From assembly GCA_021161545.1 (NCBI GenBank), contig JAGHAJ010000269.1, forward strand, positions 1 to 5,159: DNA of 5,159 bases, in the 5' to 3' direction. A program made the position numbers and the translations under genes. Shown here piece after piece: positions 1-5,159 of the stretch (positions are counted from its first letter, which is position 1; each line of letters begins with the position of its first letter). The notes under the pieces are model-generated. The model did not search any database. It saw nothing but the letters and a program-made list of their open reading frames with translations, and had not been told where the DNA came from. The stretch comes from Synergistota bacterium (GTDB taxonomy: Bacteria; Synergistota; JAGHAJ01).

Positions 1-1031
1 GACTGGTCTGCCTTTATTTTCGCTCCTTTAAGACCGTCAAATTCCACCCTCACACCTCTTTTCTCAGCTATATCTGAAAACTCCTCTATCACACCCTCTA
101 TCATCTCAGATATATCAACTTCCTCAAGCTCCAGTTTATAACTCTTCTCATCAGCTTTGCTCAGCATGAGGAGTTGGGATATCAAATGTGCCATTCGATT
201 ACTCTCCCTCAATATCACACCAAGCGAAGATTTATACTCTTCAATATCCTTACTACCCGAAAGCGCTTCTTCTGCAGTAGCAGATATAATAGTAACAGGT
301 GTTCTAAGCTCATGGGATGCATCCGATGTAAACTGACGTTCCTTTTTAAATGCATCTTCCAACCTATCCAACATCTCATTAAAAGTCGTAGCCAATCTTC
401 CTATTTCATCATCGCTATTGGTCACCTGAATTCTTTTTGAGAGATCATCCCTACCTATTGCTCTTGTTGTAGCTATTATGTTATCTATGGGAGATAGGGC
501 TCTATTCGCGAGAAATAGCCCTCCAGCAATAGCTATAAGCAGTATTATAGGTATTGCAATAAACATTACTGTTTTTAAATTCTCCATAGGTCTATTCATC
601 AGCTTAAGAGGTCGAGCACACCTTACCCTTGCAACTACTGCATCATGTTGCCTCTTTACTACATCATAAACAAGCCACCTTTCAGATCTTACCTTGATCC
701 TTCTTATAGCTCCGTATCTGGGAAAGAGCTTTAAAAGTTCTGATGGCATACCACTTGTAGCAACAATACCCCCATACATGTCAAACACAGCAACAAGTGT
801 TCCAGAATTTACTATTCTATACAACTCACGAAAACCTTCAAAACGTATACTACTTTTCGTTATACTAATCATGGCAGAAACTTGGGCTGCGTGAGCCTTC
901 AAGAGACTTCTTTCACCCTGAAACATAAGATTTGACATATACACATACACAAAAGAGGAAAAGACTCCCAGTAAAAGCAAAAGCATACCTGTATACCACA
1001 CTACAAGTTTGAAACGAATCGTCATCTTCAT
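1..1031 (-). CDS. Sensor histidine kinase, HAMP-HisKA type, C-terminus cut by window edge
   Basis: Membrane sensor kinase that should autophosphorylate and pass phosphate to the response regulator encoded just upstream. Reading from ATG at 1031, 343 codons remain open to the window edge. Visible parts: transmembrane helix at about residues 9-31, an extracytoplasmic sensor region at about 32-153 with no PAS or other domain I can name, a second transmembrane helix at about 154-175, a HAMP linker at about 176-228 (ALSPID, then DEIGRL and FNEML), and the HisKA dimerisation helix pair from about 232. The motif SDASHELRTP gives phospho-acceptor His240. The N, G1 and G2 boxes of the ATPase domain lie outside the window. 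The start overlaps the regulator's TGA stop as ATGA, so the two are translationally coupled; AAGGG sits 7 nt upstream. Architecture matches BaeS/CpxA/CssS-like kinases. The signal sensed is unknown. Confidence 0.95.
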   Translation of the reverse strand, partial: MKMTIRFKLVVWYTGMLLLLLGVFSSFVYVYMSNLMFQGERSLLKAHAAQVSAMISITKSSIRFEGFRELYRIVNSGTLVAVFDMYGGIVATSGMPSELLKLFPRYGAIRRIKVRSERWLVYDVVKRQHDAVVARVRCARPLKLMNRPMENLKTVMFIAIPIILLIAIAGGLFLANRALSPIDNIIATTRAIGRDDLSKRIQVTNSDDEIGRLATTFNEMLDRLEDAFKKERQFTSDASHELRTPVTIISATAEEALSGSKDIEEYKSSLGVILRESNRMAHLISQLLMLSKADEKSYKLELEEVDISEMIEGVIEEFSDIAEKRGVRVEFDGLKGAKIKADQ

Positions 1032-1702
1032 GGCTGTTCCCTTATTGTATACCCTATACCTCTCACAGTATGAATAAGCTTTTTCTCAAAACCATCGTCT
1101 ATTTTTCGCCTCAGGTATCTTATGTATACCTCTACTATATTGGAGCTATACTCAAAATCATAATTCCACACATGGTCAAGAATCTGAAGTTTAGTGAGGA
1201 CCTGCCCTTTATTTCTCATGAGGTACTCCAATATAGCATATTCCTTAGCTGTAAGCTCTATAACTCTTCCACCTCTCATAACGACCTTCTTGCTCGTATC
1301 CAGCACAAGGTCTCCCACGCGTAAAACTGTCTCTCTGTTCTCAGTAGTCCGCCTGAGAAGCGCTCTAACCCTTGCCAGAAGTTCATCAAAGGAAAACGGC
1401 TTAGTTAAATAATCATCTGCACCCATATCCAATCCTTTTACCTTTACACTCACATCTCCTATTGCAGTCAATATAAGGACAGGTGTAGCCTTGCCTTCAT
1501 CGCGAAGCCTTTTTAGAAAAGTCATACCATCCATTACAGGAATCATAAGGTCTAATATTATACAATCATATTCAATCATCTCTACCAAAGACATTGCACT
1601 CTCTCCATCTGTCGCAGAATCAACAGCATAACCCTCCTCCTGAAGCCTTTTAGCAATAGCCTTCAAAAGAGAAGGTTCATCTTCAACAACTAATATCCTT
1701 AT
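1028..1702 (-). CDS. OmpR/PhoB-family response regulator
   Basis: DNA-binding response regulator paired with the downstream kinase. Numbered from codon 1702, it has 224 residues, the usual family length. Receiver domain about 1-115: acidic pocket E7/D8, phospho-acceptor Asp51 in ILDLMIP, Thr79 in LILTA and Lys101 in LTKPF. Winged-helix effector domain about 125-222: ELTAKEYAILEYL, recognition helix region SSNIVEVYIRYLRRKID, and the C-terminal wing HTVRGIGYTI. The start is unusual. A strong GGAGGAGGTGAT lies at 1718-1707, and the codon 8 nt after its second GGAGG is ATA (1702), exactly where homologues have the Met of MRILVVEDE. Alternatives are ATT at 1708 (giving MKIRILVVEDE), GTG at 1711 (inside the ribosome site) and ATG at 1741 (weak AGAG upstream, adds 13 unusual residues). 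The gene is divergent from htrA and probably autoregulated through the repeat array between them. Confidence 0.95.
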   Translation of the reverse strand: MRILVVEDEPSLLKAIAKRLQEEGYAVDSATDGESAMSLVEMIEYDCIILDLMIPVMDGMTFLKRLRDEGKATPVLILTAIGDVSVKVKGLDMGADDYLTKPFSFDELLARVRALLRRTTENRETVLRVGDLVLDTSKKVVMRGGRVIELTAKEYAILEYLMRNKGQVLTKLQILDHVWNYDFEYSSNIVEVYIRYLRRKIDDGFEKKLIHTVRGIGYTIREQP

Positions 1703-1706
1703 CTTA

Positions 1707-1718
1707 ATCACCTCCTCC
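1707..1718 (-). promoter_or_regulatory. Ribosome binding site that decides the response-regulator start
   Basis: The minus strand reads GGAGGAGGTGAT, nearly the full anti-16S complement. It lies inside the reading frame that would start at ATG 1741. Its second GGAGG is 8 nt from the ATA at 1702. The same 8-9 nt spacing is seen at 1855, 3419 and 4623, which argues that translation starts at 1702 (ATA), or at 1708 (ATT) using the first GGAGG, rather than at 1741. Confidence 0.7.
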
Positions 1719-1739
1719 AAAAAGATTCTAACACATGCC

Positions 1740-1745
1740 ATGTTA
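1740..1745 (-). promoter_or_regulatory. Possible -10 box for the response regulator-kinase operon
   Basis: TAACAT on the minus strand (4 of 6 consensus) starts 11 bp from the nearest TTAA block. This is the same distance as that between the opposite end of the array and the htrA -10. If used, transcription starts near 1733, downstream of the ATG at 1741, so that ATG could not be the start. An alternative is the extended -10 TGTTAGAAT at 1733-1725, which would place the transcript start at the ribosome site. No good -35 is seen for either, as expected for an activated promoter. Confidence 0.3.
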
Positions 1746-1753
1746 CTCTAAAA

Positions 1754-1807
1754 GAATTAAAGCAAGATTAAAAATCCTTAATGAGATTTTAACGCTCCTT
1801 TAAGGTT
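1754..1807. promoter_or_regulatory. Phased TTAA repeat array, candidate response-regulator operator
   Basis: TTAA occurs at 1757, 1768, 1778, 1789 and 1800, spaced 11, 10, 11 and 11 bp, so all five face the same side of the helix. OmpR/PhoB-family regulators bind tandem direct repeats with a 10-11 bp period, often in place of a -35 box. The last block ends 11 bp before the htrA -10, and no good -35 exists there. Inference: the divergent response regulator binds here, activating htrA and controlling its own operon. Flanking bases of the units vary, and the region is AT-rich, so chance contributes to some TTAA hits. Confidence 0.55.
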
Positions 1808-3277: not shown

Positions 3278-3324
3278 AAAAATCCCTCCAAATACATTAT
3301 TTTAATAGTTGGGGATAGTGTGTA

Positions 3325-3350
3325 TATAGGGTAAAGAAATATTTACCCAA
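3325..3350 (+). promoter_or_regulatory. Palindromic operator upstream of the secreted-protein gene
   Basis: GGGTAAA (3329-3335), a 6-nt spacer, then TTTACCC (3342-3348). The 26-bp block matches the block at 4673-4648 (minus) at 22 positions. Similarity continues upstream to 3309, where TTGGGG sits 17 bp from TAAAGA at 3332, the degraded equivalents of the -35 and -10 of the other site. It lies just 5' of a separate good promoter at 3354-3381, centred near -50. Probably bound by the ArsR-like protein encoded at 4389-4081. Whether it represses or activates here is open. Confidence 0.6.
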
Positions 3351-3353
3351 GTA

Positions 3354-3381
3354 TTGATATTTTATAAAATGGTGCTATAAT
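3354..3381 (+). promoter_or_regulatory. Promoter of the secreted-protein gene
   Basis: TTGATA (3354-3359, 5 of 6) and TATAAT (3376-3381, 6 of 6) with a 16-bp spacer. Expected transcription start is near 3388, giving a leader of about 30 nt that carries GGAGGTGA at 3406-3413. Confidence 0.8.
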
Positions 3382-3418
3382 AAAGTTGTAAACCAAAAGT
3401 AAAATGGAGGTGAAAAGT

Positions 3419-4060
3419 ATGAGAAAGAGAGGAACAGCTTTATTGTTGATGCTGGTGCTACTGGGCGGAAGTAGCATAGCATATGCTCAGAACTTGCCAC
3501 CGCTGATTCTCCAGGGAAGTCAGACACCACCTCCTTCGGGAGGAAATCCACCACCCCCATCACCAGCACCTGGGACAAATCCACCGCCAGAGCCAAATCA
3601 GCCACCAGTATCTACAAACATGCCACAAAATCTCTTAGCAAACATACCAAGAGCAGTGCAAACAGCTGAAATCGTGCTAAAATATATACACCCAGGAAAA
3701 GTATGGCTGGTGAGAGGTCCACAGGGAGAAACCGTCCTAAAGGGTGCAATCCTATACCAAGGAGTAGCATTAGATACTATAAGGTTTGACCCCATGACCG
3801 GAAACACCATCCCTTGTGGATACAATCCCAGGGTACCCAATGCATCTGTATCTATCGAGTTAGTAAAAAGAAAACTCTGTGAGGTAATCAAAGGATTAAA
3901 AATCGCCCCCGGAGTGGAGTATAGGGAACCAGAAGCATGTATGATCATACCTATTATCCATGAATTTAAGATTGTCGCACATATCAAAATATACCAAGAC
4001 GGAATTCATGTGGTACCTGACTACATAGTCACACAGGAAATGAATGCTTATGGCAAGTAA
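3419..4060 (+). CDS. Secreted protein with proline-rich linker and unrecognised C-terminal domain
   Basis: I do not recognise this family. From ATG 3419 the product is 213 residues. GGAGG at 3406-3410 is 8 nt upstream; an in-frame ATG at 3404 overlaps that site and is rejected. Signal peptide about 1-23: MRKR, a Leu-rich core, then SSIAYA with likely cleavage before Gln24. Residues about 27-69 are low-complexity and Pro-rich (PPPSGGNPPPPSPAP, NPPPEPNQPP), like a spacer that lifts a domain off a membrane or through a wall. Residues about 70-213 look like one folded alpha/beta domain. It has three Cys (133, 154, 174), so one disulfide is possible, and no sortase, lipobox or second membrane signal. 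It has its own promoter with an upstream palindrome shared with the facing operon, which suggests joint regulation with the ArsR-like protein and the small membrane protein. Export is well supported; function is unknown. Confidence 0.85.
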   Translation: MRKRGTALLLMLVLLGGSSIAYAQNLPPLILQGSQTPPPSGGNPPPPSPAPGTNPPPEPNQPPVSTNMPQNLLANIPRAVQTAEIVLKYIHPGKVWLVRGPQGETVLKGAILYQGVALDTIRFDPMTGNTIPCGYNPRVPNASVSIELVKRKLCEVIKGLKIAPGVEYREPEACMIIPIIHEFKIVAHIKIYQDGIHVVPDYIVTQEMNAYGK

Positions 4061-4068
4061 AGAAAATA

Positions 4069-4096
4069 GTCGATGGGTGATTATCCACCCATCGAC
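4069..4096. terminator. Shared convergent terminator
   Basis: An 11-bp perfect stem (4069-4079 with 4086-4096, GTCGATGGGTG and its complement) closes a 6-nt loop. On the minus strand it is followed by TATTTTCTTT, a good U tract, so it mainly serves the regulator operon. On the plus strand the following CTCAACACTTCTTT is weaker. The minus-strand stop codon (4083-4081) lies partly in the loop, so the hairpin overlaps the last codons of the regulator gene. The plus gene ends 8 nt before it. Confidence 0.75.
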
Positions 4097-4389
4097 CTCA
4101 ACACTTCTTTATCAACTTTAACCTCAAAGTCATTCGTTGCATAGTACTTTCTTACTATTATCCTCTTACTATCAAATTCTACCCTATAAGAAAGAAAACC
4201 CATATTTACCAGTTTCTTAATGTGCGCTATCAATAATGGTTTAGATATTCCCAACATCTCTCTGAGCTGTTTCGTAGTCTTTTCTTCTTCCAAGCACAAT
4301 ATTAATATCTTTAACCTTATGGGATGAGCTAAAACCTGCAATGCCTCAGAGAGTCTATGCACAAGTTTTTCTTCCAAGATCGCACTCAT
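4081..4389 (-). CDS. ArsR-like winged-helix transcriptional regulator
   Basis: Small cytoplasmic DNA-binding protein of 102 residues. Residues about 12-32 form the family's first helices (LSEALQVLAHPIRLKILILC), with the ALAHPIRLKIL-type signature of ArsR proteins. Residues about 37-63 are the helix-turn-helix (TTKQLREMLGISKPLLIAHIKKLVNMGFL), followed by a beta wing (SYRVEFDSKRIIVRKYYAT) and a short C-terminal tail. The metal-sensing ELCVCD motif is absent and there is only one Cys, so this is not a classical arsenic or metal sensor. ATG starts 3 nt after the stop of the small membrane protein; GGA and AAGGA in that gene's end serve as ribosome site, implying coupling. It is probably the regulator of the two matching palindromes at 3325-3350 and 4648-4673, one of which covers its own -10, suggesting autorepression. 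A non-metal ligand or a partner protein may be the signal. Confidence 0.88.
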   Translation of the reverse strand: MSAILEEKLVHRLSEALQVLAHPIRLKILILCLEEEKTTKQLREMLGISKPLLIAHIKKLVNMGFLSYRVEFDSKRIIVRKYYATNDFEVKVDKEVLRSMGG

Positions 4390-4392
4390 TCC

Positions 4393-4623
4393 TCATTCCT
4401 TCAATTCTTCTTTTAGCTCTTCTATTTCTTTTCTGAGTTTTTCTATCTCCTCAATCATCTGGTTAATAGCTCCTTCAAGCTCCTTATTTGGGAGAGTAGA
4501 GGCTGCAAAACCAGAAACCCGTGGATACAAAAATTTAAACAACATAACAACAACACCAAGAATTACAACTACCATAAATATACCAAATATCCACTCAAAT
4601 ACACCAGGCGGCAAAGGTGGCAC
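4393..4623 (-). CDS. Small single-pass membrane protein with C-terminal coiled coil
   Basis: First gene of the operon with the ArsR-like regulator; not a family I can name. From GTG 4623 it is 76 residues: MPPLPPGVFEW, one strongly hydrophobic helix about 11-31 (IFGIFMVVVILGVVVMLFKFL), a short linker, then about 30 residues of K/E-rich heptad sequence (ELEGAINQMIEEIEKLRKEIEELKEELKE) to the C-terminus, a classic coiled coil. The basic residues (K30, R35) just after the helix favour the coiled coil in the cytoplasm. The start is chosen because GGAGG (4636-4632) lies 8 nt from this GTG; another GTG at 4632 overlaps that site. Three bases separate its stop from the regulator's ATG. It could be an oligomeric membrane scaffold or an anchor or anti-factor that binds the regulator; this is inference from position only. 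Its general shape recalls small phage-shock-type proteins, but without sequence support. Confidence 0.85.
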   Translation of the reverse strand: MPPLPPGVFEWIFGIFMVVVILGVVVMLFKFLYPRVSGFAASTLPNKELEGAINQMIEEIEKLRKEIEELKEELKE

Positions 4624-4647
4624 CCAAATCACCTCCAGTCAATTATA

Positions 4648-4673
4648 TTAGGTAAATAATATTTTACCCTATA
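4648..4673 (-). promoter_or_regulatory. Palindromic operator over the regulator-operon promoter
   Basis: Read on the minus strand: TATAGGGTAAA, six variable bases, TTTACC, then TAA. The palindrome covers the -10 box and the expected transcription start, a layout typical of repression. It matches the site at 3325-3350 at 22 of 26 positions. Most likely bound by the ArsR-like protein of this same operon. Confidence 0.65.
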
Positions 4674-4689
4674 AATTCACTTTTGTCAA
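4661..4689 (-). promoter_or_regulatory. Promoter of the membrane protein-regulator operon
   Basis: Minus strand TTGACA (4689-4684, 6 of 6), a 17-bp spacer and TAAAAT (4666-4661, 5 of 6). The start point is expected near 4654, leaving a leader of about 30 nt with GGAGG at 4636-4632. A TATAAT at 4647-4642 has no matching -35. Confidence 0.85.
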
Positions 4690-4840
4690 CTCTATAAAAC
4701 CCACCTCATTCATACCAACAGCTATCCGTGTACCCATCCCCACTTCTACTCCACTTTAAATCACCATCCCTCCCTGTTACATCAGCTTTATCACTAGACT
4801 ATATCTATACTCCATCTGCAAGTAACTGGTATTTCAACAC

Positions 4841-4982: not shown

Positions 4983-5087
4983 TTGCACATAGGGATTATT
5001 GGGGGTTCAGTTTGTTCACCAACGCTACGTGACGATGCATATACTATCGGTTATCTAATAGGAAGAAAAGGACATACATTAGTCTGT
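4983..5087 (+). CDS. N-terminal fragment of a TIGR00725/LOG-like Rossmann protein, broken by an inverted repeat
   Basis: The start is TTG at 4983 with GGAGG (4972-4976) 6 nt upstream. The first 35 codons read [M]HIGIIGGSVCSP, then DDAYTIGYLIGRKGHTLVC. This fits the first beta strand, glycine loop (IGGS), helix and second strand of the TIGR00725 family (LOG/DprA-related nucleotide-binding fold), where VCGGLGGVM normally follows. Here the frame instead runs into PFLPIR and a stop at 5106-5108, because the sequence folds back on itself from 5085-5088. In an intact genome this gene very probably continues for about 120 further codons. LOG proteins include cytokinin-nucleotide phosphoribohydrolases; the TIGR00725 branch has no firm function. 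Family assignment rests on a short stretch recognised by eye. Confidence 0.65.
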
Positions 5088-5159
5088 CCTTTTCTTCCTA
5101 TTAGATAACCGATAGTATATGCATCGTCACGTAGCGTTGGTGAACAAACTGAACCCCCA
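5000..5159. repeat. Perfect 75-bp inverted repeat with 10-nt loop at the window end
   Basis: Positions 5000-5074 and 5085-5159 are exact reverse complements, separated by TACATTAGTC. The repeat reaches the last base, so its outer end is not defined. The left arm and loop read as normal coding sequence of the LOG-like gene, while the right arm only gives a missense tail. At the turn, TGT (5085-5087), which the reading frame suggests is native, is complementary to ACA (5072-5074). This fits a microhomology-primed fold-back. Most likely an amplification or assembly chimera at a contig end; a true inverted duplication is the alternative. Confidence 0.9.

Follow-up and report, generated by a model that had tools for sequence, protein, structure and literature searches.

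Several described systems resemble the locus reported here in part. The ArsR/SmtB autorepressors (PF01022) share with it a small winged-helix protein, encoded by the last gene of a short operon, and an inverted repeat over the −10 element; the present protein differs from them in having no classical metal-binding cysteines and in falling under the NF033788 cut-off. A literature search for ArsR together with GGTAAA found no GGGTAAA-N6-TTTACC operator associated with ArsR. In the SdpC/SdpI/SdpR system of Bacillus subtilis, as here, a secreted-protein gene is convergent to an operon encoding a membrane protein and an ArsR-type autorepressor (PMC1626106). SdpI is described as a polytopic membrane protein, whereas the membrane protein of the present locus has one hydrophobic segment in 76 aa and a single predicted helix; in addition, the gene order of the operon is reversed, the secreted protein is unrelated to any family tested, and the ArsR-like protein scores 16.6 bits against the SdpR model (NF033789), for which the cut-off is 100. 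The Pyrococcus heat-shock regulator Phr is an ArsR-type repressor of itself and of a few stress genes, with a site that lies over the start point and includes TGGTAA (PMC9133787, PMC6316755). Self-control in a stress-gene setting is common to both, with degP as a neighbor here and hsp20, dnaK, and degP in a related genome (G006). However, Phr has ~200 aa as opposed to 102, acts at an archaeal promoter, and has a model (NF053602) to which the ArsR-like protein aligns with 15.3 bits against a cut-off of 320; the present palindrome is a simple inverted repeat. CpxR is tied to envelope stress in Escherichia coli. With CpxR-type control of degP the locus shares an OmpR-type two-component system beside degP and direct repeats near the degP promoter, but this likeness concerns an array at 1757–1803 and not the palindromes, and the array consists of TTAA at 11-bp spacing rather than GTAAA.

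The window, that is, the whole stretch of 5,159 bases analyzed here, is one complete contig of a Synergistota draft genome of 1.58 Mb (288 contigs, 82% complete). Comparisons were made with 185 genomes of the phylum, the nearest of which share only the phylum with the source genome. Synergistota is also the probable phylum by the NCBIfam model T2SS_C_SYNERG, which exceeds its cut-off in four of twelve relatives and in none of 14 control genomes, and which matches the source genome partially. Judged from its sequence, the system is filed as a putative autorepressor of the ArsR family, in the wide sense, with one extra target. Specifically, we propose that a promoter–operator block present in two copies is bound by the ArsR-like protein, which would repress its own operon and exert added control over the gene for a secreted protein. 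Taken as a whole, this model is probably correct, if by no means secure. The features on which it is built are the following.

3305–3350, plus strand: block copy 1, upstream of the secreted-protein gene, with a degraded promoter (TTGGGG-17-TAAAGA)
3329–3348: proposed operator 1, GGGTAAA-GAAATA-TTTACCC, with 7+7 arms and no mismatches
3342–3370, plus strand: weaker alternative promoter, TTTACC-17-TAAAAT (9 of 12 consensus positions), its −35 inside operator 1
3354–3381, plus strand: promoter TTGATA-16-TATAAT with TG before the −10 (11 of 12 consensus positions); operator 1 is centered near −49
3419–4060, plus strand: secreted protein, 213 aa, with signal peptide MRKRGTALLLMLVLLGGSSIAYA, a proline-rich linker, and a core of ~140 aa
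4068–4097: hairpin resembling a terminator, at the point where the two units converge (minus-strand call)
4081–4389, minus strand: ArsR-like winged-helix protein, 102 aa, the proposed repressor (PF01022, 37 bits, cut-off 22)
4393–4623, minus strand: small membrane protein of 76 aa, whose gene opens the arsR-like operon and follows a ribosome site
4648–4693, minus strand: block copy 2, with the full promoter of the membrane-protein/arsR-like operon, TTGACA-17-TAAAAT
4650–4669: proposed operator 2, GGGTAAA-ATATTA-TTTACCT, with no mismatches to GGTAAA-N6-TTTACC and 6+6 arms at 4651–4668

The original prediction was that 3309–3350 on the plus strand and 4689–4648 on the minus strand align without gaps at about 31 of 42 positions, and this is borne out exactly. 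The pair (31/42 identities) is the top inverted 42-base match in the window, the best in each of 12 dinucleotide shuffles of the window being 26 or 27; 5,000 shuffles of both intergenic regions gave a maximum of 29/42, and none reached 31. The two copies are identical at 15 of the 22 bases upstream of the palindrome, a value equaled by 9 of 20,000 random pairs, and at 6 of the 22 bases downstream, which is the chance level. Since the likeness continues upstream and not downstream, what is shared is a block of ~46 bp comprising promoter and palindrome, rather than the palindrome alone; it starts at AGTTG and ends at TTTACC(C/T)AA, beyond which the likeness is absent.

The palindrome itself sets the two copies apart from the rest of the genome. 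In the draft, which is 82% complete and may therefore lack extra palindromes or regulators in genome-wide counts, perfect GGTAAA-N6-TTTACC occurs exactly twice, as against 0.15 expected from base composition, and both sites lie in the window and in promoters. A search for the palindrome upstream of genes had been suggested as a check on the claim that one regulator acts at both places, and its outcome supports that claim well at the level of sequence. All seven one-mismatch matches in the genome fall inside reading frames; one that had seemed intergenic (C114) was rejected when, on reading the sequence, it proved to fall in a frame that reaches the start of the next gene with an ATGA overlap. 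Two-mismatch matches number 137, compared with 90 for a reversed control pattern, and weaker sites are therefore indistinguishable from background. The pattern is uncommon in the 185 genomes of the phylum, where nearly all matches with inspected surroundings lie in reading frames or repeats. An identical 18-mer in G141 is within a coding frame and was set aside as a coincidence. Four sites in G143 (L112–L115) were likewise discarded as relatives, three of them adjoining a transposase-like gene or sitting in one repeat common to four loci. In that genome the pattern is found four times within repeated sequence, with a transposase-like gene beside two of the four.

Copy 2 is a full promoter with the palindrome over its −10, as had been predicted: the elements run from 4689 to 4661 on the minus strand with 11 of 12 consensus positions, the −10 occupies 4661–4666, and the palindrome spans both this hexamer and the expected start point. 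At the sequence level, the proposed operator thus lies over the promoter of the operon that encodes the proposed repressor. The first product of this operon has a single transmembrane helix (hydropathy peak 2.99 at residues 11–29) followed by a charged, coiled-coil-like tail, and matches no Pfam or NCBIfam family above cut-off; the arsR-like gene begins 3 bases past its stop codon. The 102-aa protein exceeds the curated cut-off of PF01022 (HTH_5), which places it in the ArsR family in the wide sense, and scores 37.9 bits against the metalloregulator model NF033788, under the cut-off of 55. Its one cysteine (Cys32) and its three histidines (His11, His22, and His56) all lie outside the classical helix 3 or helix 5 metal motifs. 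The protein thus appears to be without a classical ArsR/SmtB metal site and may conceivably have an atypical one. Its single-sequence fold is of low confidence (pLDDT 55), and the winged-helix order of its helices is unreliable. It is the sole PF01022 match found in the draft genome, in a count confined, among winged-helix families, to this one. This, together with the position of operator 2 across the −10 and start point of the operon, makes autorepression the best reading. Because operator 2 covers the −10, repression of the operon is what would be expected: the ArsR-like protein would bind GGGTAAA-N6-TTTACC as a dimer, and its binding at 4650–4669 would block RNA polymerase. The membrane protein, translationally close to the regulator, is a plausible signal partner, and would be the likeliest candidate for releasing or holding the repressor.

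At copy 1 the picture is one of a promoter in decay. The hexamers are degraded, with TTGGGG at 3309 and TAAAGA at 3332, and a good promoter starts just downstream, both as originally described. Copy 1 may formerly have held the same promoter as copy 2; the loss of promoter elements around an intact palindrome suggests that the palindrome, and not the promoter, has been kept. The candidate promoter at 3342–3370 had been overlooked, and the role of the regulator at the secreted-protein gene hinges on which of the two candidates is used. If the weaker one is used, a protein bound at 3329–3348 would cover the −35 and hence repress; from −49, a bound regulator could adjust the gene in either direction. 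We lean, without strong grounds, toward repression rather than activation. Translation of the gene is assigned to the start codon at 3419 in preference to the ATG at 3404, as the former agrees better with the ribosome site. The product belongs to no Pfam or NCBIfam family, and its structure prediction (pLDDT 40) is unusable.

The suggestion that the regulator was "probably the ArsR-like protein" receives indirect support from its being the only PF01022 match, from the better placement of the site at its own operon, and from the presence of a separate array for its nearest competitor. We infer from position and by exclusion that the palindromes belong to it. The competitor is the OmpR-type response regulator (1028–1741, minus strand) of the adjacent two-component system, which might bind the palindromes in the manner of CpxR: the half-site GTAAA is also the CpxR half-site, and degP adjoins the response-regulator gene. 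CpxR sites, of the form GTAAA-N5-6-GTAAA (PMC9600279), are however direct repeats, and the palindromes here are inverted. Moreover, the region between the response regulator and degP carries no palindrome and offers a different array:

1757–1803, plus strand: array of five TTAA boxes ahead of degP, spaced 11, 10, 11, and 11 bp apart; the site that we propose for the OmpR-type response regulator

None of 20,000 shuffles reaches even four such boxes, and helix-phased direct repeats near a target promoter are what is expected of an OmpR-type operator. Syntenic homologs of the response regulator in two other genomes (57 and 56% identical, at L016 and L017) have three-box TTAATC arrays before the regulator gene, matched in at most 3 of 3,000 shuffles, and a further homolog locus, L029, has no TTAA array. 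The array, which is absent at both palindromes, is probably the response regulator's site at degP and at its own gene. A protein with a site type of its own is weakened as a binder of the palindromes, and we regard this alternative as decidedly unlikely. A regulator encoded elsewhere in the genome could also be imagined to bind both sites, with the arsR-like gene merely one of its targets, given that the tie between the ArsR-like protein and the site is one of position and that the helix-turn-helix count was limited to PF01022. Yet the two perfect sites of the genome lie beside a single pair of units, and such a self-contained local pair would be typical of an autoregulated local repressor; a distant regulator thus appears unlikely.

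The remaining alternatives bear on what the locus as a whole might be, and are best judged against its relatives. At E 1e-3, the 185 genomes of the phylum yielded no ortholog of the ArsR-like regulator, apart from one weak match (32%) in a 264-aa frame, and none was found in plasmids, viral contigs, or the degP loci sampled from other phyla. Relatives of the secreted protein occur only in G006 (L091, 9626–10749), where two lie in tandem behind degP, near dnaK, a dnaJ-like gene, and hsp20; neither the palindrome at this locus nor the regulator and membrane protein in this genome were found. Of the two relatives, the first apparently carries a frameshift in a run of A close to its beginning; the second has no signal peptide at its start, and its far end is hydrophobic. 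In a loop of the Sdp type, the secreted protein would be a ligand, the membrane protein a receptor that sequesters the ArsR-like repressor at the membrane, and the operon would be induced by the secreted protein. The layout, in which a membrane protein–autorepressor operon is convergent to a secreted-protein gene, is that of sdpABC/sdpRI (PMC1626106), and the ArsR-like protein has a weak match to SdpR (E 0.0056); the score far below cut-off, the single helix, and the reversed order of the operon nevertheless count against such a loop, as do the G006 relatives, which have no regulator nearby and one of which, with no signal peptide and a hydrophobic end, is ill suited to the role of a dedicated ligand. 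We consider this loop quite unlikely. A small mobile cassette (3305–4693) might also have the blocks as its terminal inverted repeats, given their inverted orientation and the presence, in the module between them, of genes that relatives were not found to have; there is, however, no transposase, the copies coincide with promoters, and in G006 the secreted-protein gene likewise follows degP, which means that the gene is not part of an insertion. This very improbable reading was rejected. Chance likeness between two A+T-rich regions, both of them sigma-70-type promoters, is barely credible in view of the 5,000 shuffles and of two exact palindromes with no further copy in the genome.

The position of the secreted-protein relatives in G006 shows that the degP link is common to two families of the phylum; the protein family, which has no Pfam or NCBIfam entry, was not found in the other genomes searched. 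At the far end of the window, positions 5000–5159 form an almost perfect inverted repeat of 160 bp with 75-bp arms, which begins inside an open frame after a tRNA gene (tRNA-Leu by eye) and ends the contig. Its form suggests a fold-back produced in assembly or amplification rather than a biological feature.

The type of mechanism preferred here, in which a local autorepressor also controls a single additional gene, is a common bacterial switch, found in this case in a little-studied lineage. A bolder version, which we put forward as a long shot, is that the locus forms a three-part envelope loop in Synergistota from parts unrelated to Sdp. A degP-linked exported protein would be joined in it by a coiled-coil membrane sensor with a single helix, and this sensor would hold or release an ArsR-type repressor, whose operator had been copied to the exported-protein gene to close the loop. 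If the simpler model is true, it would provide a concrete operator for an ArsR-type repressor without a metal site in a poorly studied phylum. It would also represent the rewiring of a promoter copy, in which one copy has stayed intact and the promoter of the other has decayed and been replaced while its operator remained perfect. Furthermore, it would join an uncharacterized family of exported proteins to the degP locus.
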